Shown here piece after piece: positions 45,505 through 64,000 of a stretch of 64,000 bases of DNA. The notes below the pieces were generated by a model. The model did not search any database and was not told where the DNA came from. It was given only the letters and a program-made list of their open reading frames with translations. The number at the start of each line of letters is the position of its first letter. The stretch's first letter is position 1. Origin of the DNA: Paenibacillus hemerocallicola (GTDB lineage Bacteria; Bacillota; Bacilli; Paenibacillales; NBRC-103111); NCBI RefSeq assembly GCF_006265175.1, contig NZ_VDCQ01000029.1:1-64000 (forward strand), read 5' to 3'. The translations under genes and the position numbers were made by a program.

Positions 45505-46920
45505 TCACACGCCGCTTACCTGCGCGTTCCGTCTGGACAGCAGCTGCTCCAGCCGCTGCGTGGCGGCTTCCTCCGTCTCCAGTCCGGACCAGTACAGCTT
45601 CGCCTCGCGGTAGAACATGTCCAGCTCTTTAATGGACATGTTCAGGGCGCCGAACGTCCGGAATGTCGGGATAATGTCCCGATACATATGGAAGCGCGAA
45701 GGACGGTAGATGCTTTCCTTGCCGGTCCATTCCGCGGCCGGCTTCAAGCCCGGTATGCTGAGCGTTTTCTGGCGGATCATGAGCTGCGTCCGGTACGAGA
45801 CCAGAAAATCGACGAAAATCCGGGCGCTGTCCTTTACCTTCGAATTGGCGTTGATGGCCAGTCCGATGAGCAGCAGCAGCGTCTTCGAATCGTTCAAGTA
45901 CGGCAGCGGCGCGATATCGTATTCGAACTCCTTGCGGCGCTCATGATGGTTCAAGCCCAAATACGTCGTCATAATCATCGATACTTTCTCGCTGAAGAAC
46001 AGCTCTTCCGCATCGCCATCCTTCTCGGACAAAAAGAGCGGAAACCGATTCTGCAAATAAATCAGCTCGCGGCACGCCTTCAAGCTCTCCGTCAGCTGCT
46101 CGCCGTTAATGGAAAAGCTCCCCTTCTCGTCCCGTTCGAAAGGGATACCGCTCTGCAGGAGAAATACGGGCCAACGGTTGCTGGACGGAAAATGGAAATA
46201 GAAGCCGAGCCGTTCGTTCTCCACCGTCAGCTTCGACGCCTGCTCGAACAGAACGTTCCATCGCCAGCCGCTGTCCGGCTCCAGCACCTCTTTCTCCCGG
46301 AAGTGATCCTTGTTGTAGCATAAAATGAGAGGAGAGAATACAAAGGGCTGCGCCTTCAGCCGTCCTTTATTCGTCAGAGCCTCGGTCAGGAACGGGTATA
46401 TATGCGGATTCGGCTCGAAGGTCTCCAGTTCATCCAACCCGTCGTTCAATCTGAAGTCGTCATAACCGTTGTAATTCATCGTAAAGACATCTAGCGCATC
46501 GTCGTCCATCATCGCCTTGACTCTGCCGTACGTGTTCAATGTGGAGGTAGTCGGAGTCAACTCGATGCGAATGCCGGGATACGCCTTGTGAAACTCCGCG
46601 ATCAGCGTCTTCATGATCGCCTCTTGGTACAGCGACGAGTGGCAGCCGAACTTCAGGACAACCGTGTCGTCCCGGGAAAATCGGGCTACTTTGTTGCCCA
46701 CTCTCGGTATTTTCTCGATCAATCGTTCGGCTACGAGCACTTCCAATCCTTGACGGACCGACTTGTTGCTGACCCGGTACTGTTTGGCGTAAGCTTTCTC
46801 CGAAGGGAGGAAATCCCCCTCACGGAACACCCCGGTCATGATCTCGTTCCGAATGGCATCGACCATGCCTTCCAATCTCGCCTGAAAAGTCCTGCGGCTC
46901 GGTTTCTCCGAATCTTCCAT
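45505..46920 (-). CDS. GntR-type regulator fused to a family-1 binding-protein-like sensor domain
   Basis: 471 residues from ATG 46920 (GGTGG upstream; the earlier ATG 46935 has no site). An N-terminal GntR winged helix (about 10-80): VDAIRNEIMTGVFREGDFLP, SEKAYAKQYRVSNKSVRQGL, RVGNKVAR. From about residue 90 it reads as a family-1 solute-binding fold without signal peptide (LKFGCHSSLYQEAIMKTLIA; DVFTMNYNGYDDF; FSPLILCYNKDHF; IAPLPYLNDSKTLLLLIGLA). It is probably a cytosolic sensor of an imported sugar that switches DNA binding. It lies just downstream of the giant lyase gene. Confidence 0.92.
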   Translation of the reverse strand: MEDSEKPSRRTFQARLEGMVDAIRNEIMTGVFREGDFLPSEKAYAKQYRVSNKSVRQGLEVLVAERLIEKIPRVGNKVARFSRDDTVVLKFGCHSSLYQEAIMKTLIAEFHKAYPGIRIELTPTTSTLNTYGRVKAMMDDDALDVFTMNYNGYDDFRLNDGLDELETFEPNPHIYPFLTEALTNKGRLKAQPFVFSPLILCYNKDHFREKEVLEPDSGWRWNVLFEQASKLTVENERLGFYFHFPSSNRWPVFLLQSGIPFERDEKGSFSINGEQLTESLKACRELIYLQNRFPLFLSEKDGDAEELFFSEKVSMIMTTYLGLNHHERRKEFEYDIAPLPYLNDSKTLLLLIGLAINANSKVKDSARIFVDFLVSYRTQLMIRQKTLSIPGLKPAAEWTGKESIYRPSRFHMYRDIIPTFRTFGALNMSIKELDMFYREAKLYWSGLETEEAATQRLEQLLSRRNAQVSGV

Positions 46921-47079
46921 GTTTCCCGCCACCATCTGTTCGATATATTATGTACTTTAGCATACAGGAAGTTGCAGGCCGCTTCAAGAAAAGGCTCGAC
47001 TCGCCCTTCATGCCGGAGAAGCCTCCACAGAGCTTCTCCGTTCCGGACGAATCGAGCCGCACATTCATTCCGCTATCCC

Positions 47080-50000
47080 TTAACGGCGATAACGATACAC
47101 TTCGCCATTGTCCAGCACGATCCATGGCTTCGATTGTGCCTCTCCGGCCTTCAGCGCCGCGATCGGATGCCGGAAGCGGACCGTTTGCTCAATCGCGCCT
47201 TGGTCGGACAGCCGGACCAGCAAGCCGTTATCGGCCGCGGCCCAATATTTGGCCGTACCGTTTTGGTTCGAGCCGTCGACCTGCAGTACGCGGTCCGCAA
47301 TGGCGGTGCGGAAGCGAACCGTGCCGTCCGGGTTCAGCGCATAGAACTGGAAGCCGTCGGAGCCGGCCAACAGCTCCGGTATGCCGTCACCGTTATAATC
47401 GCCTTGGCGGATATCATTCACCTCGCCGCCGACGTTCCGCTTCCATCTCTCCTGCAGCTTGCCGTTATAGCCGACGAACCGGACCTCGCTCTGCTTCGTG
47501 CCGAAGGCGATGACCGGCGCGGCGCCGGCGCTCGGGTGCCGGAACAGAGTCGCGACTTTCCAGCCCGGTCCTCCACCTGTTCCCCCACGGGTAACCTGCT
47601 TTTCGTTCCAGTAAGCATAGTAGGCGTACTCCAGCGCGTACATCCCTTCATCCTTGCCGTCGCCGTCAAAATCGGCGAATTCCATATCCTCGATGCCGTA
47701 ATAATACAGCAAATCCTCGTACTGCAATTTGCCGGCGGCGTCCAGTCCGTAAATGTATCGGAACTGCGAGCCGACCATGACCCACGGGGCCTGATCCGCT
47801 CCGTTCACATAAGCGACCCTTACGTTCGTGATGCCCAGCAGATTGCCCTTGCGCTCGCGATGCGCGGTGTCGCTCGGGAACTTGTAATTCCACAGCTCCT
47901 GGCCCTGGGCATTCAGCGCATGCACGTACCAATTCTCGGTTGCGACGAATACGACCGGCTGGCCGTTCAACTGCTGGACGGTCACCTCGTTCACGCGTCC
48001 CGCCGCCGGGAACGTCCATAGAACGGTTCCCACTTCGTCTATCGCCTGCACTTTTCCGCCGATGCCGCCAAGTACGGCTTCCTCTTTGCCGTCGCCATTC
48101 AAATCGCCCCAAGCGCTGTCCGTCGCCCGCTCGGAAAATGCGTATACCCGCTGCCAATCGCGCGTACCTTCCGGACGGCCGGGACGATCGCCCGCACGGT
48201 CGCGACCGTAATCGTTGTTGTCGTATACAAGGTCATATCCGTTATCGTCATTCGCGACATAACCATCTTGATCGCGGTCCTGACCGCCTCGCGGCTTCCC
48301 TTGTCCCGGACGCTCTCTCTCCTTCAGCGCCCGCTCGAGCCGCTGATCCATCTGCCGATTCCACGCGGCGGTACCGCTCTCCAACGCTCCGCCCCGGATC
48401 GGGTCGCCTTCGGCATCGTATTGAACCCGGTCTCTTCGCAGAGCATACGTCGCCCATTCGCCATTCGACGTATCCATCGCGAACATGACGGGCTCGGCGA
48501 ATTGCAGCGTTTGCGAGCCGATGCGCACCCGGGTCGCTTCGGCGGCAAGCAGACGGCCCTCGCCGATCAGATGGAACTTCCCGTCGGAGCCGAAATCGGC
48601 CGTATCGAGAGCGGACTGCACCGCATACCATTGCTTGTTGCGCTGCTTGATCTCGAGCGTGCTGTCATTCAACCGCCGCGTATTGACTTTCGGTCCGTCC
48701 TCCTTGCTGCTGGACAGCACATTGATGAAGCCGGCCTGTTCCCCGGCCGCATAGCCGCGCTCCTCCAGCACCTCGCTCAGCACCGTCTCCTTGTCGGCAT
48801 ATGGATACGGATATTCCGATTTCCAATATTTCATAAAATGGCCGTACCGGTCGATCGTCCGCAATTCCGAATCGTCCAAGCTTTCGATCGTCATCGAGAC
48901 GCCCTGCTGCTCCGCCTCGAATCGGTCGTCGCGGAGTTTCGGCGTACCCATCGTCTGCCAATTGTTTTTCAGCACATAGCTGCCGGCTTCATTCAGCTTT
49001 ATCTGGTCGTAGATCAAGTAGAACGAGCCGTTCGGGCTAATGATCGAACGCTCCCAGTCGGTACCGTTATAGTTCGGCACCGTGCTGCGGCTTACGCCGA
49101 TCCCCTCGATGTCAGCCGCCCATTGCAGCTTGGCGAGAGGCGGCTTCTTCTGCTGCTCGCCATCCTTCACGATCACGAGCCCGGAATGATGCTCCGGCGT
49201 ATTCTCGATATAATCGCGGTCGGTGAGGAACAACCGGCCGTTCGCGCTGTAATTGAGAATGGCGTTGCCGTCCTGATGCCCGTGCGCGCCGGCCGAGAAG
49301 CCGTCGACGATCAAATAGCTGTCGTCCGGGCCGAAGCCTTCGCGGAACGTCATCTTGTGGAACGAATCCGGGAGGGCGACGTCGAGCTGAGTCTGCTCCG
49401 TGCTAAGCAGATCGTCGTAGATGCCTTGCTCGACGGGGTAAGCCTGCAGCTTCGGATGAGCTCCCTCGGGCGGCTCGGCCGCTTCGCTCAGTTTAACCGG
49501 CGTATACCGGTGAATCGGGTAGTCCAGATCGCTCATTCGCTGCCCCGGGAACGGCCCCGTCCTCGTCCTCTCGAGCAGGAAGCGGTACAGCGGATCGCCG
49601 TAGAACAGCGTCGCCGCATTCATCACCTGCGAATGTCCCCACGAGTAGGCGTTGCTGTAGCCGAACGGATACGTATCGCCGCCGCCCGACATCGTGCCCA
49701 GATTATCGATCATGAGCGCGTTCAGATCGGCGCTCGGACGCAAGCTGCGGGCGATGAAATCGAGATTGCCCGTCGCCATGCCGTAATCGATATTCGTCAT
49801 CGGCACGTGCATCAAATAATCCGATCCTTCGTCCAAGCTGATATAGGACGTATTGCCGGTAAAAATCCGTTCACCCAGCTGCCTCCACGCCGCCGTCTCC
49901 GGCAAATCGTAGTAGCCGCCGAAGTAAGTGCTCCCCGCAATCAGGGACAGCGCCGGGAATATTTGGTGATTCCAGCGCGGACCGCTGGCCTCGGCTTTCG

Positions 50001-51894
50001 TCAAATAGCCGTCCTTGGAGTTCGCTTCGTACGTAATATAGAAGGCCGAGACGATCTGCTTGCGCTCGAGCGCGCTGAATATCGGCGAAGCCTCCAGCAC
50101 CGACCAGTTCTGGATGATCGTATCGCCGTCGGTCCACATATTTTGCCTTTCGTTCAACTGCGTCCTCGCTTCGGCGGGATACCGGTTCACATAATTGGCA
50201 TAGCCGACAAGCAGCTTCTTGTAAATTTCTCCGAAGCCGGCATGACCGGTCAGCAAATAATTTTCGCCGAATATTTTGATCCGGGACAGCACGTAGTGAA
50301 GGGATGCGGCATCCGTCTCGCTGCTCGCATTCGGCTTCAGCCGGGACAGCCACGTATTGACCGAGTTCAGCGCGGTTTGGACGTTGGCCGGCGTCGGATT
50401 GCCGTCATATTGCAGGTAAGAGGCCGCCTGAGCGGACAGCTTCGCTTCGAACAGCCACGGGATGACCGCCTCGCTCTGCGCTCCGACGATTTGCAGCAGC
50501 CGGTCCGTGCCGAGTCCGGCCCCCTCCAGATCGCTCGAGCCGATGACGACGGTGTTCCCGCCGAGCCCGAACGGATCGATTACCGTCTGCAGCTGGTAGC
50601 CTCCGTCGCCCGGATATACCGCATCCGCATAAGACATGCGCAGTCCGTACAGCCGGGCCAGCTGCTCGTTGTTGCCGAGCGTCCCGAGTACGATCGCGGA
50701 GCCCGCCCAGCCGTCGCGGAACTTGTCGCGATTCGGTCCGACTACGCTGGCCTGTACGTTCCAGCGGCTTTGCAGCGCATCCGCGATCCTTGTGCCGAGC
50801 GCCTGCCAGGCCGCATCCTCGGGAACTACGATCTGCAGACCGTGAACATCGGTGGCGCCGTGCAGAGGCCGCATCGGCAAGTTATGATAAGGCGGTATAT
50901 CGTTCGGACTGAACACATTGACGTCGAGAGAAGCTTGAGCGCTTCCGTAAGTAGCCTTTACGACCGTCGCACCGGGCGATACTCCGCTGACGCTTCCGCC
51001 GACGGCCGTCGCCACATCCGGTCGTTCGGACGCGTAGACTACCGTATTGTCATTCATAAGCCGCACATCTCCATTCGTGTAATGGCCGAACAAATAAACC
51101 GGCTCCGTACGTCCGACATTCACGTTCAGCGATTCCGGATAGAAGCTTAAGCTTTGCAAGCTTCCCGCCGGGGCGATCGCCGCGTCGCGGATACGGACAT
51201 TGTCCAAGTAAAACGTGCCGAGACCGGTCGATATCGTGGCGAAACGCAGCAAATTGACCGATGTCGCGGCCGTATCGCGGAAAGCCGTATCCTTGCGGAT
51301 CAGAAGCGGCTTATCCCCGTCGAAAACGGTTATCGTTTTCTTCCCGGCCGCAGCGTCGAAGTCGACCCTGAACCGGTACCATTTGCCCGGCTCGTACGTT
51401 TCCCCGGTCGTTACGCGCGCGGCGCCGTTATAATATTCGATCGTCCCGTTGGCCAGCAGGCCGATCCACTCCACCGGCTTCGTACCCGATGGACCGGTGC
51501 TTTCGAGCAGCATGACCAGCCGGTCGGCCGTATCCGCCTTGACCCACCATTCCACGCTGCCCCGTTCGACCGGCGCGAACGCCACGCGGCCGCCCATCGC
51601 CTTCGTCTTGTCGTTGTCCATAATTTTTACAGTCTTGGTGCCGCTGACCGCATACGTTTGATCCGTTACGGTCACTTCCGCGCTTGCGTTCGTCCAGCCC
51701 TGCTGTCCGTTCAGCGGGCCAAGGCTGAAATTCTCGAAATCATAAGCGATTTCCCCCGTGGCGGCATCAATCCGGTTGCCCGGCAGCCCGGCGAGCAAAC
51801 CGCCGAAAGCGACGACGACGGCCAACAGCAAACTGAGCGCCCCTCTGCCCGCCGCCGGATTAAGCCATTTCCGAAACTTGTGGAACCTCATCAT
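47080..51894 (-). CDS. Giant secreted heparinase II/III-like polysaccharide lyase with FG-GAP propeller
   Basis: 1604 residues, ATG 51894 after GGGAGG (8 nt). Signal peptide (LSLLLAVVVAFGGLLAGLPG). A laminin-G-like N-domain follows (about 45-240: YDFENFSLGPLNGQQGWTN; WYRFRVDFDA). Next is a BIG2-like domain (about 245-325), an alpha/alpha-toroid region (about 480-830: TGNTSYISLDEGSDYLMHVP) and a heparinase-like sheet domain (SAGAHGHQDGNAILNYSANG). The C-terminal third has FG-GAP blades with calcium loops: DLNGDGKEE, DFDGDGKDE, DYNGDGIPE. It should cleave uronate-type polysaccharide outside the cell. An Asp/Arg/Gly-rich insert (about residues 1195-1240) separates the catalytic part and the propeller. 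It is a paralogue of the protein at 60748-64000. Confidence 0.92.
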   Translation of the reverse strand: MMRFHKFRKWLNPAAGRGALSLLLAVVVAFGGLLAGLPGNRIDAATGEIAYDFENFSLGPLNGQQGWTNASAEVTVTDQTYAVSGTKTVKIMDNDKTKAMGGRVAFAPVERGSVEWWVKADTADRLVMLLESTGPSGTKPVEWIGLLANGTIEYYNGAARVTTGETYEPGKWYRFRVDFDAAAGKKTITVFDGDKPLLIRKDTAFRDTAATSVNLLRFATISTGLGTFYLDNVRIRDAAIAPAGSLQSLSFYPESLNVNVGRTEPVYLFGHYTNGDVRLMNDNTVVYASERPDVATAVGGSVSGVSPGATVVKATYGSAQASLDVNVFSPNDIPPYHNLPMRPLHGATDVHGLQIVVPEDAAWQALGTRIADALQSRWNVQASVVGPNRDKFRDGWAGSAIVLGTLGNNEQLARLYGLRMSYADAVYPGDGGYQLQTVIDPFGLGGNTVVIGSSDLEGAGLGTDRLLQIVGAQSEAVIPWLFEAKLSAQAASYLQYDGNPTPANVQTALNSVNTWLSRLKPNASSETDAASLHYVLSRIKIFGENYLLTGHAGFGEIYKKLLVGYANYVNRYPAEARTQLNERQNMWTDGDTIIQNWSVLEASPIFSALERKQIVSAFYITYEANSKDGYLTKAEASGPRWNHQIFPALSLIAGSTYFGGYYDLPETAAWRQLGERIFTGNTSYISLDEGSDYLMHVPMTNIDYGMATGNLDFIARSLRPSADLNALMIDNLGTMSGGGDTYPFGYSNAYSWGHSQVMNAATLFYGDPLYRFLLERTRTGPFPGQRMSDLDYPIHRYTPVKLSEAAEPPEGAHPKLQAYPVEQGIYDDLLSTEQTQLDVALPDSFHKMTFREGFGPDDSYLIVDGFSAGAHGHQDGNAILNYSANGRLFLTDRDYIENTPEHHSGLVIVKDGEQQKKPPLAKLQWAADIEGIGVSRSTVPNYNGTDWERSIISPNGSFYLIYDQIKLNEAGSYVLKNNWQTMGTPKLRDDRFEAEQQGVSMTIESLDDSELRTIDRYGHFMKYWKSEYPYPYADKETVLSEVLEERGYAAGEQAGFINVLSSSKEDGPKVNTRRLNDSTLEIKQRNKQWYAVQSALDTADFGSDGKFHLIGEGRLLAAEATRVRIGSQTLQFAEPVMFAMDTSNGEWATYALRRDRVQYDAEGDPIRGGALESGTAAWNRQMDQRLERALKERERPGQGKPRGGQDRDQDGYVANDDNGYDLVYDNNDYGRDRAGDRPGRPEGTRDWQRVYAFSERATDSAWGDLNGDGKEEAVLGGIGGKVQAIDEVGTVLWTFPAAGRVNEVTVQQLNGQPVVFVATENWYVHALNAQGQELWNYKFPSDTAHRERKGNLLGITNVRVAYVNGADQAPWVMVGSQFRYIYGLDAAGKLQYEDLLYYYGIEDMEFADFDGDGKDEGMYALEYAYYAYWNEKQVTRGGTGGGPGWKVATLFRHPSAGAAPVIAFGTKQSEVRFVGYNGKLQERWKRNVGGEVNDIRQGDYNGDGIPELLAGSDGFQFYALNPDGTVRFRTAIADRVLQVDGSNQNGTAKYWAAADNGLLVRLSDQGAIEQTVRFRHPIAALKAGEAQSKPWIVLDNGEVYRYRR

Positions 51895-52057: not shown

Positions 52058-53053
52058 TTATGCCAAAACGCTCATTTGCTCCTCTTTCACTTCGCCCTGC
52101 AGCTTCTCGCCCGCCAGCACGCGCTTTACCTCGTCAATCGCAAATTGCCCGATGCGCTTGATTCCGTTATTGACCGCTCCGGCAATGTGCGGCGTCAAAA
52201 TGCAGTTCGGCAGGCTGCGAAAAGGATGATCGGGCGCCGGCGGCTCCGGATCGGTCACATCGAGGCAAGCGAACAGTCTGCCCTTCCGCAGCTCCTCGAC
52301 AAGCGCATCCTCATCGACGATCGATCCGCGCGCCGTATTGATCAGAATCGCGTCATCCTTCATTAAAGCAAGCCGATCGCGATCGAACATCTTATACGTC
52401 TCGGGAATCGACGGGGCGTGAATGGAGACGACGTCGCTCGTCGCGAGCACCTGCGCCAGCTCCGCCTTGATCACTCCGAGCTCGGTCGCCTGCGCGTCCG
52501 TCATGATCGGATCGTAGACCATAATGGTTACCTCGAAGTTGCGGAGCAAACGGATATAATGCTTGCCGGCCTGACCTGCGCCGATGACTCCGACGGTTAC
52601 CTGATACAGCTCGCGGATCCGCTCCTTGCCTGCGTTCCAGCCTCCGCCGCGGGTCGTCTGCGAGAGCTGCCACATATTTTTCAACGAAGTAATGGTCAGT
52701 CCTAGCGCAGTCTCGGCGACGCCCCTGCCAAGCGGGCCATTGCCGCTCGAAACGCGGATGCCCCGCTCCCACAGCTCGGGAGTTACGATTCCTTTGACGG
52801 TTCCGGCGGCATGCATAACCGCCTTGAGCCCCGGAGTCCGATCCAGAATGTCCTGCGTCAATTTGGAGCATCCCCATGAGGTGATGGCGAAGTCGGCCCC
52901 TGCGATCACTTCCTTCAGCGTTTCCGGCTGAGGCGAACCTTCCTTGACGTTTCGCACGACGGTACCAATGGCCTCAAGCTGCTTCCAATGCGAATCGTCA
53001 AAGATTCGTTCCTGTATTCTCGGTTCCGGCAGTATGGCTATTTTGACTCCCAT
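52058..53053 (-). CDS. D-2-hydroxyacid dehydrogenase (phosphoglycerate-dehydrogenase-like)
   Basis: 331 residues from ATG 53053 (GGAG 7 nt upstream). NAD-binding motif VGVIGAGQAGKHYIRLL; catalytic arginine in LINTARGSIVDEDAL; glutamate in LDVTDPEPPAPDHP; histidine in ILTPHIAGAVNNG. All three catalytic residues are present. It oxidises or reduces 2-hydroxy/2-keto acids in the cytoplasm. It follows the orphan binding-protein gene by 39 bp, so it is co-transcribed. A terminator follows. The role is inferred to be processing of a sugar-acid product of the lyases. Confidence 0.93.
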   Translation of the reverse strand: MGVKIAILPEPRIQERIFDDSHWKQLEAIGTVVRNVKEGSPQPETLKEVIAGADFAITSWGCSKLTQDILDRTPGLKAVMHAAGTVKGIVTPELWERGIRVSSGNGPLGRGVAETALGLTITSLKNMWQLSQTTRGGGWNAGKERIRELYQVTVGVIGAGQAGKHYIRLLRNFEVTIMVYDPIMTDAQATELGVIKAELAQVLATSDVVSIHAPSIPETYKMFDRDRLALMKDDAILINTARGSIVDEDALVEELRKGRLFACLDVTDPEPPAPDHPFRSLPNCILTPHIAGAVNNGIKRIGQFAIDEVKRVLAGEKLQGEVKEEQMSVLA

Positions 53054-53092: not shown

Positions 53093-54418
53093 TTATTTTT
53101 TTGCCTTTTCCTTCTCGAGCTCCGCCTTCAGCTTCTCGTCGATCTCGCGCAGCGCCGTGTTAATATCCTTCTTGCCTTGCGCCACCTCGATGAAAGCATT
53201 GCCTACGAGGTTTTGCTGCGTTCCTCCCGGAACGGTGACTTCCCCCATTTTGCGTTTCGGCGTATAGTTGGCGGGTTTATAGAAGTTGATCGCATTCATG
53301 TTTTTCTTGCTGTAGACCGGATCGGACTGACCGAGCACCTTCGCGATCTCCGGATTGTTCAGTGTCGTCGGTATGCCCAGCTTCGAGTCGGATATCTGAG
53401 ATTCGTCGGACAGCATCGCCATGATCATCTCGAACGCCTCGTCCTTATGCTTGCTCGTATTCGTAATCGCCCAGTAGGCGGGTCCGCGCTGCGGCATCAA
53501 ATTTGGTCCGTCGTTGAACTTTGGATAGGATACGATATCCCAGTTCACTTCCGGAGGAATGACGAGATAAATGTTATGCTGGTTCGTCATCAATGCGACG
53601 TTGCCTTTGTTGAACGCTTTGTCTTCCAGACTGGACGTACTCTCGATCGTATTGCTCGGGATTTGGTAAAACCGGAGCAGGTTTTGGAACAGCGTGCTCC
53701 ATTTTGCAGAATCGTGCAATCCATCGGCAGTCGGACTGAGAATCGGCAGCGACAGCACGTTGTCGCGCAGCGTGTTGACCGGATTGGCGCTGAAGCCGCG
53801 GTATACCGTCCCGCCGTCCACGCGCGTCATCTTCTTGGCCAGCTCGTGCAATTCATCCCACGTCATGCCGTCCTTCGGATAAGCGACGCCGAACTTATCG
53901 AACAAGTCCTTGTTGTAATAAAGCGCTTGCGGGAAATAAGGCGGTACGGGCAAGCCGTAAAGGGCGCCGGTGCCGCCGGCATCGACGATTTCGTCAATAA
54001 ACACTTTGTTGAAACGATTAACATCGTACTTGTACTTTTTAACCATTTCGGTCAAATCGTATCCGATTTTATAATCCAGATACCCGGTCTGCAGCGTCGG
54101 GACGTCGGTCCGGATAATGTCCGGTATTTTATTGGCGGCGACCAGATCGGATATCGTCTGTCCTTTGCCGCTCATAATATATTCGATCGTAACGTGCGGG
54201 AACTTCTGCTTCAGCGTGGCGCTGAAACGTTTGTCGAACTCCTCTTGCGAAACCCCGGCCGTGAAGATCGTCATCGTATACGGCTCTTTCGGCTTCTCCT
54301 CCGCTTTCTTGTCCGTCGAGCCGGCCGCCCCCGTACCTCCGCTTCCTTGACCGCCGCAGGCCGAAACCAGTACGGAAGTCATCAAGGTAAGAGCTACCAA
54401 TTTGCTTTTTGTTTTCAT
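53093..54418 (-). CDS. Family 1 solute-binding lipoprotein (orphan, lyase block)
   Basis: 441 residues, ATG 54418 after GGGGG. Lipobox VLVSACGG. Family features: PDIIRTDVPTLQTGYLDYK, ALYGLPVPPYFPQALYYNKD, DKFGVAYPKDGMTWDELHEL, TNTSKHKDEAFEMIMAMLSD and a C-terminal INTALREIDEKLKAELEKEK. It is very similar to the protein at 59334-60638, so the pair likely bind related oligosaccharides. It heads an operon with the hydroxyacid dehydrogenase. No permease is adjacent. The upstream gap holds a cre-like site. Confidence 0.94.
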   Translation of the reverse strand: MKTKSKLVALTLMTSVLVSACGGQGSGGTGAAGSTDKKAEEKPKEPYTMTIFTAGVSQEEFDKRFSATLKQKFPHVTIEYIMSGKGQTISDLVAANKIPDIIRTDVPTLQTGYLDYKIGYDLTEMVKKYKYDVNRFNKVFIDEIVDAGGTGALYGLPVPPYFPQALYYNKDLFDKFGVAYPKDGMTWDELHELAKKMTRVDGGTVYRGFSANPVNTLRDNVLSLPILSPTADGLHDSAKWSTLFQNLLRFYQIPSNTIESTSSLEDKAFNKGNVALMTNQHNIYLVIPPEVNWDIVSYPKFNDGPNLMPQRGPAYWAITNTSKHKDEAFEMIMAMLSDESQISDSKLGIPTTLNNPEIAKVLGQSDPVYSKKNMNAINFYKPANYTPKRKMGEVTVPGGTQQNLVGNAFIEVAQGKKDINTALREIDEKLKAELEKEKAKK

Positions 54419-55042
54419 CGCAGCTTTCCCCCAACTAATTTGTTTGATTGCATGTTCACATATTCATACATCTTCTATATCCGTACGCGAATCCCGGACT
54501 GCCGTTCGCGCTGGTCGCGCTGGTGCCCGTTCACCTCCCCCTTTATCGCTCCCACGATGCCGCTCTAGTTGATTGGTTTATACGTGGTTCCCAATAAGCT
54601 ACAACTTCATTTTAGAAAGCGCTTCATTTTTTGTCAACTGGTTTATTTCCAACGTTCAACAAAGTTCGCATGATCGTTTCAAATGAAAACGGATACATCT
54701 TTGCTATATAAGGATTATATGCTTTTAAAATAATTTCAAAAACCGATTTACGAATAAAAGATCCGCCAATCGTGGTTCCCAACTATAAATACTAAGAAAC
54801 CAGATTTCGTTTGGTTTACGACGCAATTCTCTGGTTTCCCAAAACTGCAACGGCACAATGCACGAACAAAAGGAGACTGGTCTTCCTAAGCGGGGAGAGG
54901 TTTGTAAAAAAAAAGGGGGGGGCCGAGGTTCGATGCTTATTCAAAGTATAGATTCCCGATGAATCATTCGTCCCGCATTGTGTATAATGAAAGTATTTCC
55001 TGCTTATCAGAGGCGCGGCGAAAGGGGATTTATTGGAAGCCA
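54419..55042. other. Divergent control region between the binding protein and the GntR fusion
   Basis: About 620 bp without a gene. GTGGTTCCCAA occurs at 54585-54595 and 54772-54782, and a related TGGTTTCCCAAA occurs at 54832-54843. The repeated motif may be the operator of the GntR fusion encoded to the right. A cre-like palindrome is listed separately. A homopolymer tract A9-G8 lies near 54907-54923. Confidence 0.55.
54611..54630. promoter_or_regulatory. cre-like (CcpA) palindrome
   Basis: TTTAGAAAGCGCTTCATTTT contains GAAAGCGCTTC, one base short of the palindromic cre core TGAAAGCGCTTTCA. It is about 200 bp upstream of the binding-protein start, a possible site for carbon catabolite control. 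The site is plausible but imperfect. Confidence 0.4.
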
Positions 55043-56392
55043 ATGAAACGAAACGGCGATTTTATATATTTGAAGCTATATAGATTATTAAGAGAACAAA
55101 TTATGAACGGCCTGATAAAACCCGGGGAATTCATTATGCCGGAAAGCGCGCTGTGCAAACAATACGGCATGAGCCGGAAATCGGTCAGACGGGCGCTGGA
55201 CGAGCTGCTGAAGGAAGGAATGATCGCCAAGAGGGTCGGACTGGGCACGTTCGTCCCGCCGGATTTCTCCATTCCCGCGGCGGACCGCAAAGTATTGCGC
55301 ATTCTCGCTCCTTATCCGGCCTTCTTCGTCGATTCCGGGCTGCCGTACATTTGCGATGCGTTCCGCCGCAAGCACCCGGGCGTAGATATAAATGTGCTGA
55401 GCTTGCCTGCGGCGAGATATTGGGATTCGATCTTACAATCGGAACGAATGGGCTACAACCCGCACGTCGTGTTCTGTTCCGACAGGATATACCGGGAGCT
55501 TGAAGCCGAATCGACTTTCGTCGATCTCGAGCCGCTGCTCGGGGATGCTTTATCCGGGGTGTACCCGAAAATCCGCAACGCTTTCCGTCGCGAAGAGGGA
55601 ATCGCTGCGGCGCCGATTACATTTACGCCCGTTTGTCTGGCCTATAATCCCGAATTGTTCGCAGCCGGCGATATCCCGCCGCCCAAGCCGCATTGGAACG
55701 TGAACGACTTTATGAATGCGGCCGAGAGCCTGACCTCCGCGCATGACGGCAAAATCAACCGGTACGGCTTCAGCTTCTTCTCGTCATATAACCGCTGGCT
55801 CGTCTTTGCCCTGCAAAACGGAATGCGCCCTTCCGGCAAAAACAACAAGCAAATCATTTCCGGATCGCTCTCCGTCCTGCAAGACTGGCTGAATCGACGA
55901 CGGATCTCTACCGTCTACCACGACAACATGAATCTGGCCAATCCGTTTATTCACGGAAAATCGGCGATGACGCTGACAACGCTGTTCGAAATGTCGAGCT
56001 GGGGAGACCGGGAGCTCGGCTTTGCGCCGGAAATCGCCCCGCTGCCGTTCGGAGATACGAAATCCACGCTCATGCAAGCCAATTTTCTGATGGTGCCGAA
56101 AGCCAATGAGGAGGTTGAACTGTCGATGGACTTCGTGAAGACGGCGCTAGAAGCCGAAGTTCAGAAAACGATCTGCGACCGCACCCCTTTTCTATCCGTC
56201 TTGGAGGCTGTGAACCTGGCCGTCAGATCGCAAGCTTATTTGAGAACGATCAATGTCGGCAACGGCTTGATCGACCGCAATTATTTTATGCATGAATTGA
56301 TCGAGTCCGCCGATCAAGCCGAATTACGGGCGGAGATGAGTTTGTTCTGGCTCGGGCTGGAGGACGCGGAGACGATAGCCGAACGATTTTGA
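55043..56392 (+). CDS. GntR-type regulator fused to a binding-protein-like sensor domain (second copy)
   Basis: 449 residues taking ATG 55043; a 28-codon extension to 54959 is open but unlike the family start. GntR helix at the N-terminus: KLYRLLREQIMNGLIKPGEF, then PESALCKQYGMSRKSVRRAL and RVGLGTFVPP. The remainder is a family-1 binding fold with no signal peptide (ILAPYPAFFVDSGLPYICDA; LAYNPELFAAGDIPPPKPHW; GFSFFSSYNRWLVFALQNGM; EIAPLPFGDTKSTLM). It is divergent from the binding-protein operon and convergent with the amidohydrolase operon, so it is well placed to regulate both. Confidence 0.92.
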   Translation: MKRNGDFIYLKLYRLLREQIMNGLIKPGEFIMPESALCKQYGMSRKSVRRALDELLKEGMIAKRVGLGTFVPPDFSIPAADRKVLRILAPYPAFFVDSGLPYICDAFRRKHPGVDINVLSLPAARYWDSILQSERMGYNPHVVFCSDRIYRELEAESTFVDLEPLLGDALSGVYPKIRNAFRREEGIAAAPITFTPVCLAYNPELFAAGDIPPPKPHWNVNDFMNAAESLTSAHDGKINRYGFSFFSSYNRWLVFALQNGMRPSGKNNKQIISGSLSVLQDWLNRRRISTVYHDNMNLANPFIHGKSAMTLTTLFEMSSWGDRELGFAPEIAPLPFGDTKSTLMQANFLMVPKANEEVELSMDFVKTALEAEVQKTICDRTPFLSVLEAVNLAVRSQAYLRTINVGNGLIDRNYFMHELIESADQAELRAEMSLFWLGLEDAETIAERF

Positions 56393-56494: not shown

Positions 56495-57298
56495 TTAACC
56501 GAGCAGCCGTCGCGCGTTGCCACGACATAACGCAGCTCTATCCGAATCGCTTATATTCGCCGACGCCAATTGCAGCGCGGTCGCCTCCATGACCTGGATC
56601 GGCGTGCAGGAGCCGTACGCCGCCAGCTTCATTTGCCCGCTCCTGCACAATGCGGCTATAGCGGCCAAAGGCCCGTTCGTAAACCACAAGTCGAGCAGCA
56701 CGCGCTCCGTATGATGGCCGTCGTTCAACAGCTCCTTCACCCGATCCCATTCATTCACCTTCAAGCCGCTGATCACGACCGGCAAGTCGCCGCACAGCCG
56801 GAGCAGCTCGGCCAGCTCGTGAAACGGAGCGGCCTTCGCTCTGAACCGCGGATGCTGCAGCCTGTCGTCCTCCAGCCTCGCGCTTACGTGCAGAGGCAAT
56901 CCGAGCTCGTTCAGCCGGCCGGCCAGCTCGCCTACCTGCGGAATGAGCAGACTGTAATCATGGTAGCCCGGCACGAGCCGGATACCGCGGACGCCCGATT
57001 GTACGGCCCACTCCAACTCCAGGTCCCAGGCGGCTTCCGCCGGATTGAGAATGGCGACCGGCCACAGCCGTCCGTCCGCCGCCGTCTCGGCGAACAGCGC
57101 CTCGTTGCCCGAACGCGTATCGAAGCCGAAGACAGAGGCGATGTGGCTGACGCATATCCCTTCCAAACCGTACTTGTCGGCCATCGCGGACAAGTCGTCC
57201 GCACCTGCCCGTATTTCCAGCCGTGTCGGCCATTGGCCTATAAATGCCGTCAAATCGACAGCCTGCTGCCGTACGAACGGCTCCAACAAGTGCATCAT
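56495..57298 (-). CDS. Amidohydrolase-like protein lacking the HxH metal motif
   Basis: 267 residues from ATG 57298 (GGAGG 7 nt upstream), overlapping the upstream gene's stop. The fold resembles amidohydrolase-2 proteins: CVSHIASVFGFDTRSGNEAL, AVQSGVRGIRLVPGYHDYSL, GLPLHVSARLEDDR and a C-terminal SDSDRAALCRGNARRLLG. At the position of the usual DxHxH the sequence reads QQAVDLTAFIGQW, with no histidine pair. Distal His/Asp metal ligands are also not apparent. It may be a non-catalytic partner of the upstream enzyme, or an enzyme with a different mechanism. Confidence 0.82.
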   Translation of the reverse strand: MMHLLEPFVRQQAVDLTAFIGQWPTRLEIRAGADDLSAMADKYGLEGICVSHIASVFGFDTRSGNEALFAETAADGRLWPVAILNPAEAAWDLELEWAVQSGVRGIRLVPGYHDYSLLIPQVGELAGRLNELGLPLHVSARLEDDRLQHPRFRAKAAPFHELAELLRLCGDLPVVISGLKVNEWDRVKELLNDGHHTERVLLDLWFTNGPLAAIAALCRSGQMKLAAYGSCTPIQVMEATALQLASANISDSDRAALCRGNARRLLG

Positions 57299-58038
57299 TT
57301 CGCCACCTCCGCCAATAGACGCTCCATATTTTTGCCCATGACCGATTCGTTCTGCTCCGGCGTCAGCCCGGCGCCGATCACTTTGCCGATATTGCTCGCG
57401 AGGTCGGCTCCGTGCAGATCGGAACCGAAGATGACCCGCTCCGCGCCAAGCCGCTTGACCGCGATGCTTACTTCGCCGCCCCCGATCGGCGAGCCGGACG
57501 TATCGGTGTACACGTTGTGGTGCGGCGCCACGATATTCATCGACGACTCCACCTGACCGGACATGTGGGCCATAATGATTCTCGCCTCCGGATAGCGGCT
57601 TGCCAGATTGGCCACGTTCAGGGCCGTCGTCTCGTACGGCATCTGACCGACCGTCTTGCGCCACGCATGGACGAGAATCGGAGCCCGATAAGCGATCGCT
57701 CGCTCGATAAACGGATAAACGAGAGGGTCGTCGCACAGCGTAGCCACCCACAGCTTTAGCCCGATCATGCCTTGATCCTCGAACCGCCTGCGGAAGTCGT
57801 CGAGCGCTTTCTTTCCGTGACGCGGATTCACGTAGTAATACCCGGCGATCCGTTCGGGATGTCGGCCCATGACGGCGACCAAATCGTCGTTTGCCCTGCT
57901 GATCCGCTCGAAGGTTGGATAATATCCGATCGTGACGACCGAGCTGCAGACGAACAGCTTGACTCCGAGTCGGTCCCCTTCCTCCAATACGCCGGGATAA
58001 AGGTCGGAACCGCTCAAGTGAATGTGCGCATCGATCAT
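57295..58038 (-). CDS. Amidohydrolase-family (TIM-barrel) metal-dependent hydrolase
   Basis: 247 residues from ATG 58038, overlapping the aminotransferase stop as ATGA. Metal motif MIDAHIHLSG at the N-terminus; lysine region MIGLKLWVATLCD; APILVHAWRKT; IIMAHMSGQVES; and aspartate in VIFGSDLHGADLA. The ligand set is complete. The substrate is unknown. Its C-terminus overlaps the start of the metal-lacking homologue, so the two are coupled and may form a heteromer. Confidence 0.92.
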   Translation of the reverse strand: MIDAHIHLSGSDLYPGVLEEGDRLGVKLFVCSSVVTIGYYPTFERISRANDDLVAVMGRHPERIAGYYYVNPRHGKKALDDFRRRFEDQGMIGLKLWVATLCDDPLVYPFIERAIAYRAPILVHAWRKTVGQMPYETTALNVANLASRYPEARIIMAHMSGQVESSMNIVAPHHNVYTDTSGSPIGGGEVSIAVKRLGAERVIFGSDLHGADLASNIGKVIGAGLTPEQNESVMGKNMERLLAEVAK

Positions 58039-59291
58039 TTCGCTTCCCCTTCCATCGTCTCCGTATATTCCTTGCACGCCCGATCCAATCGGTTTAACGC
58101 TTCTTCGATATGCTCATCCCGATGGCTGAAATTGACATAGGACGTATTGTACATCGATACCCCGTGCTTGTAGGCAAGCCGGAAAAACCGCTTCAACGCC
58201 GCCGCACCCTCGACCCCTTGGCCCGCTAAGCTCGGACAAGGCCAGAAGCCGCGTAACGCGATCGGCACGCCGTATTGCTCGAACAAGCGCTGCAAGCCGC
58301 CCCACATCGCTTCGCCCTGCTTCCACAGGAAGCCGACGACATCTTGCTGCTTATATACGTTCATGCATGCTTTGGCCGCGGCGAGCGACAATGTCTCGCC
58401 TCCGAACGTGGAAGAAATGCTCACCTTGCCCGGCGCGCAGCAGGACATGATTTCTTGCTTTCCCGCGTAGACCGATAGCGGCATGCCGTTGGCGATGCCT
58501 TTGCTGAATACGGCCAGATCCGGCACAACCCCGAAATATTGCTGCGCGCCGCCAATGGCGATGCGGAACCCGGTGACGATCTCGTCATAGACCAGCAGGG
58601 AGCCATGCTTGGCGGTCAGCTCGCGGAGTGCCGGGTAAAACGCGTGCCCGGCTTCCATGTCGGGATAGTTTGCCGCTACGATGACGGCGGCGATCCGGCC
58701 GTCGTACTCCGCGAACAGCTTCTCCAAGCCGGCGATATCGTTCCAGCGGCAAGCATGGTGCAAGGCGCTCAGCGCATGCGGGACGCCCGGCAGCACGGCC
58801 GTCGTTCTGTCCGGCAGCGTAGCTCCGCCGACGGCAAGCCCGTTCAGCCAGCCGTTATAGCCGATCTGCACGATATGATCCCTGCCGGTGAAAGCACGAG
58901 CCAGACGGATCGTGGCGGCGATCGCTTCCCCGCCGGTTTTCAGAAAGCGGGCCTGCTCCGCGCAAGGGACGAGCTCGCAAAACATCTCGGCAACCTCGCC
59001 CTCCAGCGGATGCGGATGACCGAATACGATCCCGTGCTCGAGTTGCTCGCGAATGGCCTCGTTGACCGCGGGATACCGGTATCCGAGCGTGACGGGACCA
59101 AGCCCGTTGCGAAAGTCGATATAATCCCTACCGTCGGCGTCCCATACCCGGCATCCGTCGCCTCGCACAATGACGCCGGGCTCTTCCGGGGCATACTGGG
59201 GAGCTTTGGACCCCGTGCTCGATCCCCAAGGAATCGAAGCATTCAATCGTTCCGTCCATCGCTGCGAATGTGTCAGCTGTTCATTCGGCAT
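58035..59291 (-). CDS. Class III aminotransferase / glutamate-1-semialdehyde mutase-like
   Basis: 418 residues from ATG 59291 (GGTGG 8 nt upstream). PLP-enzyme marks: VWDADGRDYIDFRNGLGPVT, FLKTGGEAIAATIRLARAFT, LLVYDEIVTGFRIAIGG and the Schiff-base lysine in AVFSKGIANGMPLSVYAGK. It is complete. Family members transfer amino groups or isomerise amino aldehydes; in a polysaccharide block this points to amino-sugar or amino-acid-substituted sugar breakdown. It is co-transcribed with the binding protein upstream (43 bp) and the amidohydrolase pair downstream. Confidence 0.92.
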   Translation of the reverse strand: MPNEQLTHSQRWTERLNASIPWGSSTGSKAPQYAPEEPGVIVRGDGCRVWDADGRDYIDFRNGLGPVTLGYRYPAVNEAIREQLEHGIVFGHPHPLEGEVAEMFCELVPCAEQARFLKTGGEAIAATIRLARAFTGRDHIVQIGYNGWLNGLAVGGATLPDRTTAVLPGVPHALSALHHACRWNDIAGLEKLFAEYDGRIAAVIVAANYPDMEAGHAFYPALRELTAKHGSLLVYDEIVTGFRIAIGGAQQYFGVVPDLAVFSKGIANGMPLSVYAGKQEIMSCCAPGKVSISSTFGGETLSLAAAKACMNVYKQQDVVGFLWKQGEAMWGGLQRLFEQYGVPIALRGFWPCPSLAGQGVEGAAALKRFFRLAYKHGVSMYNTSYVNFSHRDEHIEEALNRLDRACKEYTETMEGEAK

Positions 59292-59333
59292 AGTTTCTTC
59301 CACCCTTCCGTATCCGTATGGCTGCCAGCCTTT

Positions 59334-60638
59334 TTATTTTTTTCGTTCCTTGTCGACTTCCAGCTTCAGCTTCTCGTCCAGCTGTCGCAGCGCCGAATTC
59401 AGATCGGTTTTTCCTTGAGCCGCATCGAAGAACGATTGATAGAGCAAGGCCAGCTGCGTCGCCCCCGCCACATCGGGCAACTCCGCTTTGCGCTTTGGGG
59501 TAAACGGAGCGGGCTGATTCGCGTTGAGCGCGTTCATATTCACTTTGCCGTACACGGCATGCTCCTTGCCCAAAGCGTCCTGGATCGGCTTGCTCGCGAG
59601 CGTCGTAGGAAGGCCTGCTAGCGAATCCTTCATCTGGATCTCGTCTGAGAGCATCTCCAGGACGACCTGAAACGCCTCGTCCTTATGCTTGCTTTGCTTC
59701 GTTATCGAGAAGTAGGCCGGACCGCGCTGGGGCATCAGCTTCGGCGCGCCGCTCATCGACGGAAAGGCGACATAGTCGTATTTCACTTCCGGCGGGATAT
59801 TCTGATACACGCTGTGCTGGTTAACCTGCATCGCGACGGTTCCCTTGCCGAACATGCCCGCTTCGGCCGAATTGTTGGCAGCAATCTCGTTGCCCGGTAT
59901 TTGAAAAAACCGCAAGTAATTTTCGAAGATGAGCTTCCATTTCTCTTGATCGGCCAACTTATCGGCGTTCGGATCCAGAATCGGCAGCGAGTACGGATTG
60001 TCGCGAAGCGTTGCTCCCGGATTAAAGCTGAATCCGCGGTACGCCACGCCGTTATCGATCCTCGTCATCTGCTTGGCAAGCTCGTACACTTCGTCCCAGG
60101 TCATGCCGTCTCTCGGATATCGGACCCCGAATTTGTCGAACAAATCCTTGTTGTAATACAGCACATGCGGGAAGTACGGCGGCACGGGCAGCCCATACAA
60201 GGCGTTGCTGCGGCCAAGCGCGACGAGCTCATCCATAAATACTTTGTTGAAGCGCGCGAGATCGTAATTGTACTTCTTGACGTAAGGAGTCAAATCTTCT
60301 CCCAAGCCCAGGTCCAAATAATTGCTGAGCAGCGTCGAAATATCCGTCCGGATAATATCCGGAATCGTACCGGCCGCCACCATCTCCGGAACCATAGTGC
60401 CTTTGGCATTGATTACGTAATTCACGGTGATATGCGGGAACTTCTTCCCGAGTACTTCCTTGAACCGGCTGTTGAACTCCTCCTCGGTCACCCCTCCGCC
60501 ATGGATCGTCAGCGTTATCGGCTCTTTCGGTTTCTCCAGCGCCGCCGATCCGGGATTGTCGTCCTTGCCGCCGCTGCATGCGGTGAGCGCTGCCATAGAA
60601 CAAATCAATAATGCGTACCACTTGCGTTTGTTGAACAT
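59334..60638 (-). CDS. Family 1 solute-binding lipoprotein (orphan, head of aminotransferase operon)
   Basis: 434 residues from ATG 60638 (AAGGAGGGG 6 nt upstream); the longer open frame runs into the upstream palindrome. Lipobox MAALTACSGG. Close paralogue of the protein at 53093-54418: IPDIIRTDISTLLSNYLDLG, ALYGLPVPPYFPHVLYYNKD, DKFGVRYPRDGMTWDEVYEL and LNSALRQLDEKLKLEVDKER. It likely binds a product of the giant lyase encoded just upstream. No ABC permease is found in the window. Confidence 0.94.
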   Translation of the reverse strand: MFNKRKWYALLICSMAALTACSGGKDDNPGSAALEKPKEPITLTIHGGGVTEEEFNSRFKEVLGKKFPHITVNYVINAKGTMVPEMVAAGTIPDIIRTDISTLLSNYLDLGLGEDLTPYVKKYNYDLARFNKVFMDELVALGRSNALYGLPVPPYFPHVLYYNKDLFDKFGVRYPRDGMTWDEVYELAKQMTRIDNGVAYRGFSFNPGATLRDNPYSLPILDPNADKLADQEKWKLIFENYLRFFQIPGNEIAANNSAEAGMFGKGTVAMQVNQHSVYQNIPPEVKYDYVAFPSMSGAPKLMPQRGPAYFSITKQSKHKDEAFQVVLEMLSDEIQMKDSLAGLPTTLASKPIQDALGKEHAVYGKVNMNALNANQPAPFTPKRKAELPDVAGATQLALLYQSFFDAAQGKTDLNSALRQLDEKLKLEVDKERKK

Positions 60639-60658: not shown

Positions 60659-60695
60659 TATAATGGGTACATGTTACCCACATGTACCCATTATA
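60659..60695. promoter_or_regulatory. Perfect 16-bp inverted repeat before the binding-protein gene
   Basis: The arms are TATAATGGGTACATGT and ACATGTACCCATTATA, separated by TACCC. The structure ends 21 bp before the start codon, just upstream of the ribosome site. The outer TATAAT could be a -10 box on either strand. It could be an operator for a dimeric regulator such as a GntR fusion, or an RNA hairpin controlling read-through from the lyase gene. No T-run follows, so it is not a standard terminator. Confidence 0.85.
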
Positions 60696-60747
60696 CGACA
60701 ACGATGTTCGATTGGAAAGCTGAAACAATCGACTTTTTCCAATTTCC

Positions 60748-63700: not shown

Positions 63701-64000
63701 TTTTCCCGCTGTTTCAGGTGGGCCTTCGCTTCTTTGGGATACCGGTTGAGGAAATCCGCAAAGCCGAGCATTATTTTTTTGTATTGCGCGCCTGCCGCCT
63801 CGCTGCCCGTCAAAAAATAGTTTTCGCCGATAAGTCCGGCATCGGATAAAACGGTCAACGTTGCGCGAAAGCTTCTTGCAGCCGGGTCGAGCTTCGCCAA
63901 TAGCGTGTCCGTGGCGGACAAGGGCTTCAATACCGCGGATAATTCGCTCGATACGACGGCTTCGTTCAGCCAGCGCAGCCGGGGTTCCGGAGACGACTCT
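60748..64000 (-). CDS. Second giant heparinase II/III-like lyase with FG-GAP propeller (5' end off window)
   Basis: Open from the stop at 60748 to the right edge (over 1080 codons), so the signal and N-terminal domains are outside. It aligns along its whole length with the lyase at 47080-51894: GENYFLTGSEAAGAQYKKIM, VISRDDGSDYMMHVPITTLD, GTGAGAHNHHDANTFLRYTD and a C-terminal propeller with DLDGDGIEELVVGG and DFKGDGKTEIIAGSGGHQMY. It lacks the Asp/Arg/Gly-rich insert of its paralogue. Blade 2 has lost acidic calcium residues (DFGGNGKHM). It is 110 bp upstream of the binding-protein/aminotransferase operon. Confidence 0.92.
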   Translation of the reverse strand, partial: ESSPEPRLRWLNEAVVSSELSAVLKPLSATDTLLAKLDPAARSFRATLTVLSDAGLIGENYFLTGSEAAGAQYKKIMLGFADFLNRYPKEAKAHLKQRENIWTAGHSFFAAWYVNEPSPIFTDEERKRIVSAVYVVLDANGNDGYIPRHSQKFARNNHETYPAFSLMTGAFYFRSHYPGLLPEVDSWYAIGEQMFTNNTAVISRDDGSDYMMHVPITTLDYALMTGDRRFLREGMRASADLQAIMIDNLGVMVGGGDVVPFGRSSAYHWGHSAILNAAAWFYGDPSYRLLLERTRSGPFPNQAMGDLIRPLHRYATDMAQGETAASARTSLVSGYPVDSGVYGDLAKEMKEDINVPQSESFHKLGFRQGYGPEDSYLLIDGTGAGAHNHHDANTFLRYTDKGRIFIDARDYIERGPEHKNGIVVVKDGVQEMKPKLARVDWLGDADGMAVSLTTLPDNNGTDWQRAVISPGGRFYLIYDQIDFKQDGSYVLENVWQTLGNASVKADRFEVEQQGVTMTLQSMDDSELRTYDRYGHFQQYYNRKTPYFYAKEENVLREVKEERAYRAGESFRFVNVLSSSTTDGATAEAERIDDHTMRIREEGDEWLALWGRSADTGEFRSDGGLYMMNGRELTVAGTTRVEFGALSLSFVQPVLFKLDAERKTWKAFAVAKGLVQYDGQGNPLTEGIVQEGTHELDREAVRRLKEQLEMKRSAPIHKRTFTPDKSPEGWEKRISFDEAVSGSALGDLDGDGIEELVVGGVNGKVRAFRHSGETLWTYESRGRVNEVTVQQLDGKPVVTVASENWNVHILEADGSVKWTKLVTTTQTPSHGNLIGVTNIRIAYVDGQEEDPWIMVGTSFNNLIGLDRSGKQVYSEEAYYYGIEDMQFADFGGNGKHMGILGMEYVYPAIFKEKAPILRAVRDTGPGWKAVRTFPAYKNGPAAAVLGSKENRVHLARFQDNTLKDVWMINVGGEVNDIQVNDFKGDGKTEIIAGSGGHQMYALDEDGRVSWRASIGDRVLKVNALRADGGVRYMAGADNGKLVTLTSDGSMESATRFSSDIADILVNDKLDQAWVILRNGEVYVR

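Follow-up and report, generated by a model that had tools for sequence, protein, structure and literature searches.

What are two giant lyase-like proteins, two lipoproteins and two unusual regulators doing side by side in the genome of Paenibacillus hemerocallicola? The question arises in positions 1-64000 (the whole 64,000-nucleotide stretch analyzed, from here on the window) of contig NZ_VDCQ01000029.1, which is 102,016 bp long in a genome of 9.65 Mb (assembly GCF_006265175.1). The genes in question start at 45505 and run past the end of the window. The answer we favor, with moderate confidence, is that they form two neighboring operons for an acidic (uronic-acid-containing) polysaccharide, each with its own sensor-regulator in which a GntR DNA-binding domain is fused to a solute-binding protein (SBP) domain.

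All of the genes named here are present as long open reading frames (ORFs), and their order and spacing point to two putative operons on the minus strand. Operon 1 runs from SBPa, a lipoprotein SBP (53093-54418; PF01547, 2.3e-21, with a VSAC lipobox-like site), through a D-isomer-specific 2-hydroxyacid dehydrogenase (52058-53053; PF02826, 2-Hacid_dh_C, 1.8e-53) and lyase 1 (47080-51894) to its last gene, the regulator GntR-SBP1 (45505-46935). Operon 2 begins with lyase 2 (60748-64653; the window ends inside the gene at 64000), followed by a second lipoprotein SBP with a Pfam match and a lipobox-like site, SBPb (59334-60638), a class III aminotransferase (58035-59303; PF00202, Aminotran_3, 1.2e-46), and two Amidohydro_2 proteins (PF04909) that we call AH-A (57295-58077; 2e-21) and AH-B (56495-57319; 1.1e-10). 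The second regulator, GntR-SBP2 (54959-56392, with a likelier start, by eye, near 55040), is alone on the plus strand between the two, divergent from operon 1 and convergent with operon 2. A sequence-only reading of this DNA had described the genes as alternating operons; its two gene groups hold, and the actual layout is two minus-strand groups with one plus-strand regulator between them. It had also listed the dehydrogenase, the aminotransferase and two amidohydrolases, all of which Pfam confirms, with the qualification that AH-B lacks amidohydrolase metal ligands, and two very similar binding lipoproteins, which are both there and are 55% identical.

The case for a polysaccharide starts with the lyases. 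Lyase 1 (1604 aa) has a signal-like N terminus (by eye), an extension with a weak Big_2 match, a catalytic core, and a C-terminal FG-GAP/CGLA-type propeller; lyase 2 has 1301 aa. As had been proposed from the sequence they are paralogs, 45% identical, and in both Pfam finds the lambda-carrageenase propeller PF25292 (4e-9 and 3e-13). For the catalytic domain there is no Pfam or NCBIfam match, the only matches in these proteins being of the propeller/FG-GAP type plus the sub-threshold Big_2. A scan of a genome collection found 16 further lyase loci (8 Paenibacillus species, one Paenibacillaceae metagenome-assembled genome or MAG, one Clostridia MAG, and 6 Bacteroidota), and a tblastn search with lyase 1 aligns over 1266-1600 aa at the homologous loci, so the propeller is included in the homologs.

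In all 18 lyase cores N291, H292, Y344, D391, H521, and D525 are invariant (an N-H...Y...H-x-x-x-D set, numbered by the lyase 2 core; adding 84 gives the whole protein), and H523 is conserved in at least 90% of them. The distance between the Asn and the Tyr is 53, and that between the Tyr and the His is 177. Computed from the residues given in PMC12088678 and PMC12915356, the first distance is 53 in PL39, 54 in PL35, 57 in PL17, and 60 in PL40, and the second is 155-180 across these four families. The residue table of PMC12088678 also gives 54 and 130 for PL12, so the second distance varies among toroid lyases. The Asn/Tyr/His set with typical toroid-lyase spacing is found here, the equivalence being one of order and spacing, not of structure. 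Since the N-H...Y...H-x-x-x-D set is in every core with similar spacing, we conclude that these proteins are probably a very divergent, unnamed branch of the (alpha/alpha)-toroid polysaccharide lyase superfamily.

More distant signals exist. A Pfam scan of the 18 cores gives weak matches to Hepar_II_III_C in three (best 0.0043), to Alginate_lyase in one (0.0038), to GH20b in two (0.038), and to Lyase_8_C in one (0.25), with no curated Pfam or NCBIfam family above cut-off. In a profile comparison with 30 genuine Hepar_II_III proteins of the genus, whose ORFs may be partial, 7 score above the best of 37 controls, all taken from one contig and unmatched in length to the Hepar_II_III proteins. Three of the seven (L131, L114, L118) pair their H-x-H-x-D motifs with ours residue by residue and a fourth (L112) does so by alignment coordinates; L113, L137, and L130 show no such pairing.

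Could these giant proteins instead be carbohydrate-binding or hydrolytic, with the propeller as the active part? Known families match only the propeller (and weakly Big_2) in the two proteins of the window, and the PL24 and PL25 ulvan lyases are described in PMC12915356 as propellers themselves; a toroid ulvan lyase is also on record (PMC6168547). Against this idea, the N/Y/H/D set is invariant in the part of the 18 homologs that is not propeller, and we regard it as improbable. The two proteins are best described as putative toroid-type lyases. No curated Pfam or NCBIfam family matches the core above cut-off, nor does any protein in the PDB.

How old is the pair? In a maximum-likelihood tree (rooted for drawing only) lyase 2 groups with the Paenibacillaceae MAG at support 100/99, lyase 1 groups with P. 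mesophilus at 99/96, and a 100/100 branch splits the lyase 1 set from the lyase 2 set. That branch rules out a recent tandem duplication of the two paralogs. A lyase 1 ortholog is present in 5/5 genomes of the genus, and a second full lyase only in this one of the five, lyase 2 being absent from its four genus mates. The family is sparse: it occurs in 11 of 104 Paenibacillaceae genomes and in 8 of 251 genomes of the Sphingobacteriaceae (the family of Daejeonella lutea), 6 of them with a full-length lyase. In the Paenibacillaceae MAG a gene of the GlcNAc 2-epimerase family (L008:7988-9382) directly follows the clade-2 lyase and may hint at what lyase 2-type enzymes produce.

Operon 1 is conserved as a unit. 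L009, L011, L021, and L022 all have SBPa, dehydrogenase, lyase, and GntR-SBP1 in this order, which with the window makes 5/5 genomes of the genus. Over the 16 homologous lyase loci, the dehydrogenase occurs in 5 (74-90% identity), a relative of GntR-SBP1 in 7, an SBPa of 63-85% identity in 4 (the same four genus mates), and AH-A with AH-B in 4. None of these (dehydrogenase, GntR-SBP1, SBPa, AH pair) is found at L010, L012, L013, or L018, of which L012 and L018 are truncated where their contigs end, and L015 has SBP matches of 29-32% only.

The promoter of operon 1 is conserved too. Its core (54609-54637, minus strand), delineated from the window and four orthologous upstream regions, consists of TTGACA, a cre-like AAGCGCTTT in the spacer, and TAAAAT, flanked on either side by AACCA repeats. 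Upstream of SBPa the five regions have in common an AACCA ahead of the TTGACA box, the cre-like site in the spacer, and the -10 box, and a downstream AACCA pair, 10-11 bp apart, is in 4 of the 5. AACCA/TGGTT occurs 5-7 times where 1.2-2.6 are expected in each of the five regions (Markov resampling p <0.0005 to 0.043, L009 being the weakest), for a word that was selected after inspecting these same promoters. In the upstream stretches of GntR-SBP1 or lyase genes from other genera, the word is absent from seven, and occurs twice in L010 and once in L015. GntR-SBP1 may act at the AACCA repeats, and CcpA at the cre-like site.

Operon 2 provides a different motif. Upstream of lyase 2, at contig positions 64737-64759 and beyond the window, lies the operator-like motif GGTATAGGTGCGGTATATGTACC; the 23-bp sequence GGTATAGGTNNGGTAYATRTACC is found there exactly, right after the TATAAT box of the lyase 2 promoter. 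The same 23 bp occur exactly, just behind the -10 box, in the divergent promoters of GntR-SBP2 and the AH cassette (AH-A and AH-B, at some loci with the aminotransferase) at L102, L104, and L105, from two other genera. At L098, L099, and L101 a copy with 2 mismatches precedes AH-A, and copies with 3-4 mismatches precede GntR-SBP2. A loosened pattern allowing one mismatch finds 9 sites in 6 of 104 genomes, 8 at cassette loci and 1 elsewhere, against 1 for a reversed-pattern control. The pattern was loosened after its 8 cassette sites were known, so the test measures rarity and not discovery, and the 8 matches are not independent. The match away from the cassette, G016:C54:42031-42053 (L148), has two ORFs near it (L148:428-1465 and L148:3-479). 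A second element within operon 2, at 60659-60695 on the minus strand, is a perfect palindrome with GGTACATGT half-sites and arms of at least 15 bp, starting from the TATAAT before SBPb. Only one other place on the contig combines perfect 15-bp arms with a spacer no longer than 7, and the palindrome is a candidate GntR-SBP2 operator. The position of the motif behind the -10 box suggests repression.

Does the cassette belong with the lyase at all? An AH-B search of the 104 family genomes gave matches at 1e-8 in 17, in 8 of which they are close (5e-79 or better). We looked at the nine other strongest AH-B loci (same threshold), calling ORFs at several of them with a simple script that takes the longest frame. 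Each of the nine has a relative of GntR-SBP2 (36-60% identity) together with AH-A and AH-B, and the aminotransferase is at six (L098, L099, L101, L102, L103, L106); a propeller lyase, searched at 1e-6, is at none. The neighbors are varied: L098 has a CN_hydrolase, L099 an alpha/beta hydrolase along with a beta-helix protein resembling pectate lyases, and L104 an ADH-like gene, while L104 and L105 have genes that by look are importer-like. At L100, in a genus mate, a 1058-aa Hepar_II_III_C protein (24.5 bits, cut-off 24) is beside SBPa, AH-A, and AH-B. Given these nine loci lacking a propeller lyase and their varied surroundings, the cassette is, as far as gene neighborhoods tell, a unit of its own that at some loci stands near polysaccharide genes. 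One could go further and take the aminotransferase, AH-A, and AH-B for an independent small-molecule pathway (for an amino acid or amide) that landed beside a lyase with which it shares no substrate. The nine loci and their mixed neighbors favor this, as does the absence of lyase 2 from the four genus mates. On the other side, lyase 2 and the cassette are in one transcriptional direction, the motif of the cassette loci is at the lyase 2 promoter, and related lyases and AH-A/AH-B homologs are neighbors in another phylum. On balance a chance landing seems to us unlikely, and we return to the reading of a shared acidic substrate.

The link in the other phylum is as follows. Four of the six Bacteroidota lyase loci have AH-A and AH-B homologs downstream of the lyase; at the other two the contig ends soon after the lyase gene (1.8 kb beyond it at L012, 1.1 kb at L018), and in the L018 genome AH-B is on another contig, near its start. 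AH-B (at 1e-60) is found in 16 of 251 Sphingobacteriaceae genomes, namely in 5 of the 6 with a full-length lyase versus 11 of the 245 others (Fisher p 3e-6, uncorrected for kinship). Of the five rows in the AH-B profile, A4, four come from Bacteroidota genomes that carry the lyase, a bias toward detecting AH-B in precisely such genomes. The D. lutea locus (L020) also includes DHDPS, MR_MLE, a 3-keto-disaccharide hydrolase, a Gfo/Idh-type oxidoreductase, and SIS proteins, a gene set that fits acidic-sugar catabolism in general and names no polymer. The sequence-only reading had called for a comparison of gene order across Paenibacillaceae: operon 1 and the cassette are each conserved there, a lyase and a close AH-B on one contig are particular to this one of the 104 genomes, and co-location reappears in Sphingobacteriaceae, where a related lyase adjoins the AH-A/AH-B homologs.

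AH-A and AH-B are homologous to each other (hhalign P 1.6e-7) and differ where catalysis would be expected. In AH-A the residues H137, H171, and D220 are present in 17/17 sequences and the HxH motif in 15/17, the exceptions being two Bacteroidota paralogs; we take these for metal ligands, presumably following the pattern of the amidohydrolase superfamily. AH-B has HxH in 0/14, with D-x-T/N in its place, and in the alignment of the two proteins the remaining ligand positions of the window AH-B are S, a gap, and C. AH-A has the ligand set of a metal-dependent amidohydrolase and AH-B does not. AH-B has invariant residues of its own in 14/14 (D22, R114, H120, R148, D151, R153), and could be either a pseudoenzyme partner or an enzyme with a different active site. 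At the profile level AH-A matches one uncharacterized hydrolase and several decarboxylases in the PDB; a PDB profile search with AH-B led nowhere. As for the aminotransferase, its best PDB matches are HemL enzymes (3e-59), and it has one SKG motif whose lysine we assume to bind pyridoxal phosphate. We rejected HemL itself as its identity: its scores fall short of all the NCBIfam HemL cut-offs shown (279 vs. 486, 273 vs. 398, 246 vs. 527, 216 vs. 637, 122 vs. 706).

From an aminotransferase and amidohydrolases next to a lyase, the sequence-only reading had deduced a polymer with amino or amide groups. In its favor are the aminotransferase within operon 2, the CN_hydrolase gene in the L098 cassette, and similar-looking ORFs, by look only, at L099 and L101. 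The comparison of loci does not support the deduction: the cassette is separable from the lyase, being found at nine other Paenibacillaceae loci with no propeller lyase, and as amidohydrolase is the name of a superfamily it says nothing about the substrate. We give such a polymer little credence, and go on with an acidic one.

How would the products enter the cell? Scoring of 150 of 219 candidates turned up no BPD_transp_1 permease domain on this contig, so SBPa and SBPb probably use permeases encoded elsewhere. There are at least 150 SBP_bac_1 matches in the genome (150 of 445 candidates scored), the GntR-SBP proteins among them. Under our proposal, the secreted propeller-bearing lyases would cut the polymer by beta-elimination using the toroid-type Asn(-His)/Tyr/His set, and the lipoproteins SBPa and SBPb would capture the products and pass them to a permease encoded elsewhere. 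Inside the cell, the dehydrogenase of operon 1, and the aminotransferase and AH-A/AH-B cassette of operon 2, would process the acidic product. GntR-SBP2 would probably repress lyase 2 and the SBPb-aminotransferase-AH-A-AH-B genes from just behind their -10 boxes, and repression would end once its SBP domain binds imported product.

The regulators were predicted to have binding-fold sensors, and Pfam finds GntR and SBP_bac_1 domains in both. GntR-SBP1 has its winged helix (PF00392, 1.6e-11) at residues 25-83 and its sensor domain (PF01547, SBP_bac_1, 9.6e-15) at residues 106-382; GntR-SBP2 has the same two (2.3e-13 and 7.8e-15), and the two proteins are only 26% identical. Six GntR subfamilies are named by effector domain in PMC4494728 and PMC5882156 (FadR, HutC, MocR, YtrA, AraR, PlmA), and none of the six named there is SBP-like. 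None of these six effector domains is found in our proteins, in which the Pfam sensor is SBP_bac_1 and NCBIfam MocR/HutC-type matches are confined to the helix-turn-helix (HTH). A profile built from 12 GntR-SBP proteins detects, at 1e-15, at least 55, 25, 42, 64, and 46 places in G000, G008, G009, G010, and G011, or roughly 25-64 per genome, with the best 150 candidates scored in 4 of the 5 genomes; among the 150 of 232 matches listed, nearly all span the whole profile. A single GntR-SBP query has matches at 1e-10 in 76 of 104 family genomes (at most 15 candidates scored per genome), the weaker of which may include plain GntR or plain SBP proteins. Are they near lyases? Of 122 Hepar_II_III matches, 26 have a regulator from the list of 150 at 10 kb or less, versus 8.8 expected, and 19 at 6 kb or less, versus 5.3, for an expectation that assumes uniform placement and a count that takes orthologs of five related genomes separately. 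Most lyases, then, are not near any listed regulator. Elsewhere in the window (35491-37137) an AraC-type HTH is fused to Peripla_BP_2, a binding-protein-sensor regulator of a different HTH and binding-protein family.

What weighs against our proposal? Several observations do. The core of the putative toroid lyases has no match in searches of PDB sequences and PDB profiles. In 23 of the 30 single comparisons the Hepar_II_III proteins do not exceed the best control, which leaves the homology weak; a grouped-profile comparison is nearly null, L131 excepted, and a direct comparison of the core with the 1058-aa protein of L100 gives nothing. For the motif, the 12-bp core is matched ahead of the window's GntR-SBP2 with no fewer than 3 mismatches, there is no site within 5 mismatches at L100 or L103, where the GntR-SBP2 relatives are only 36-39% identical, and L106 has only a 5-mismatch site. 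In Paenibacillaceae the overlap between lyase and cassette is modest (close AH-B in 3 of 11 lyase genomes vs. 5 of 93 others, Fisher p 0.037), and among the 104 genomes a lyase and a close AH-B share a contig only here; the two genus mates that have both carry them on different contigs. Among the Bacteroidota, AH-B finds no match at 1e-10 in the genome of L012, and the AH-A homologs have twin-arginine-like N termini that AH-B lacks (by eye), which makes a joint AH-A/AH-B complex doubtful there. With these points counted, we still favor two operons for an acidic polysaccharide: the lyase-centered utilization block of the sequence-only reading is upheld by the catalytic signature, the genus-wide gene order, and the shared operator-like motif.

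A wider interpretation, which we put forward tentatively and with less confidence than the two operons, combines three things: a lyase family with an uncurated catalytic domain, a GntR subfamily with SBP sensors in which each regulator would read one imported glycan, and an AH pair found in two phyla for an undescribed step in acidic-glycan use. The GntR-SBP proteins would then be the one-component counterpart of the SBP repertoire, placed above chance near secreted lyases. We recognized no description of GntR-SBP fusions, of this lyase type, or of the AH pair in the literature, as judged on titles and abstract openings and partly on top-ranked results. If the GntR-SBP proteins read imported oligosaccharides directly, then substrates could be assigned in bulk to orphan binding proteins and lyases, a prospect that rests on their number in each genome (dozens), on the lyases that lie near some of them, and on an operator that can be located for at least one. 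Through the 23-bp motif the GntR-SBP2 regulon can be tested directly. The lyases would be a further enzyme family acting on acidic polysaccharides, and AH-B offers a testable example of a conserved partner without catalytic ligands.

The same contig has other features. The window opens with an RHS-repeat protein with an F5/8 type C domain (1-3594) that runs off the contig start. A small cluster at 28341-33091 includes an Exo_endo_phos protein, a further Amidohydro_2 (29637-30737), and an ORF (31772-33091) that has no Pfam match and is related by BLAST to SBPs of other loci. Beyond the window, a GH31 glycosidase with a C-terminal AraC DNA-binding domain, an enzyme-regulator fusion (L005:11571-14231, contig 71571-74231), is near a stand-alone GH31 (L005:8729-10996), and a lanthipeptide-type cluster (L007:1197-8391, contig 85197-92391) has a lantibiotic dehydratase, a C39-peptidase ATP-binding cassette (ABC) exporter, and a LanC-like protein.

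How does the locus compare with known systems? The aminotransferase resembles glutamate-1-semialdehyde (GSA)-aminomutase-like class III aminotransferases in its top PDB matches, HemL enzymes, and differs from them in scoring under the HemL cut-offs. The lyases resemble the toroid plus beta-sheet lyases (PL12, PL15, PL17, PL21, PL35, PL39, PL40) in having Asn, Tyr, and His in the same order with similar spacing, in the H-x-H-x-D motif seen in the Hepar_II_III proteins of the genus, and in weak Hepar_II_III_C matches; they differ in cores with no significant PDB match and in the added N-terminal domain and C-terminal propeller. The regulators share with the GntR family the PF00392 winged helix and a candidate operator with inverted GT...AC-type halves, whereas their C-terminal sensor is SBP_bac_1, unlike those of the named subfamilies. 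Gram-positive polysaccharide utilization loci of the ABC type combine a secreted depolymerase, lipoprotein SBPs, cytosolic catabolic enzymes, local regulators, and ABC permeases. Our locus is like them in the first four; it differs in that no ABC permease was found on the contig (150 of 219 candidates scored), and in that its local regulators are GntR-SBP fusions.

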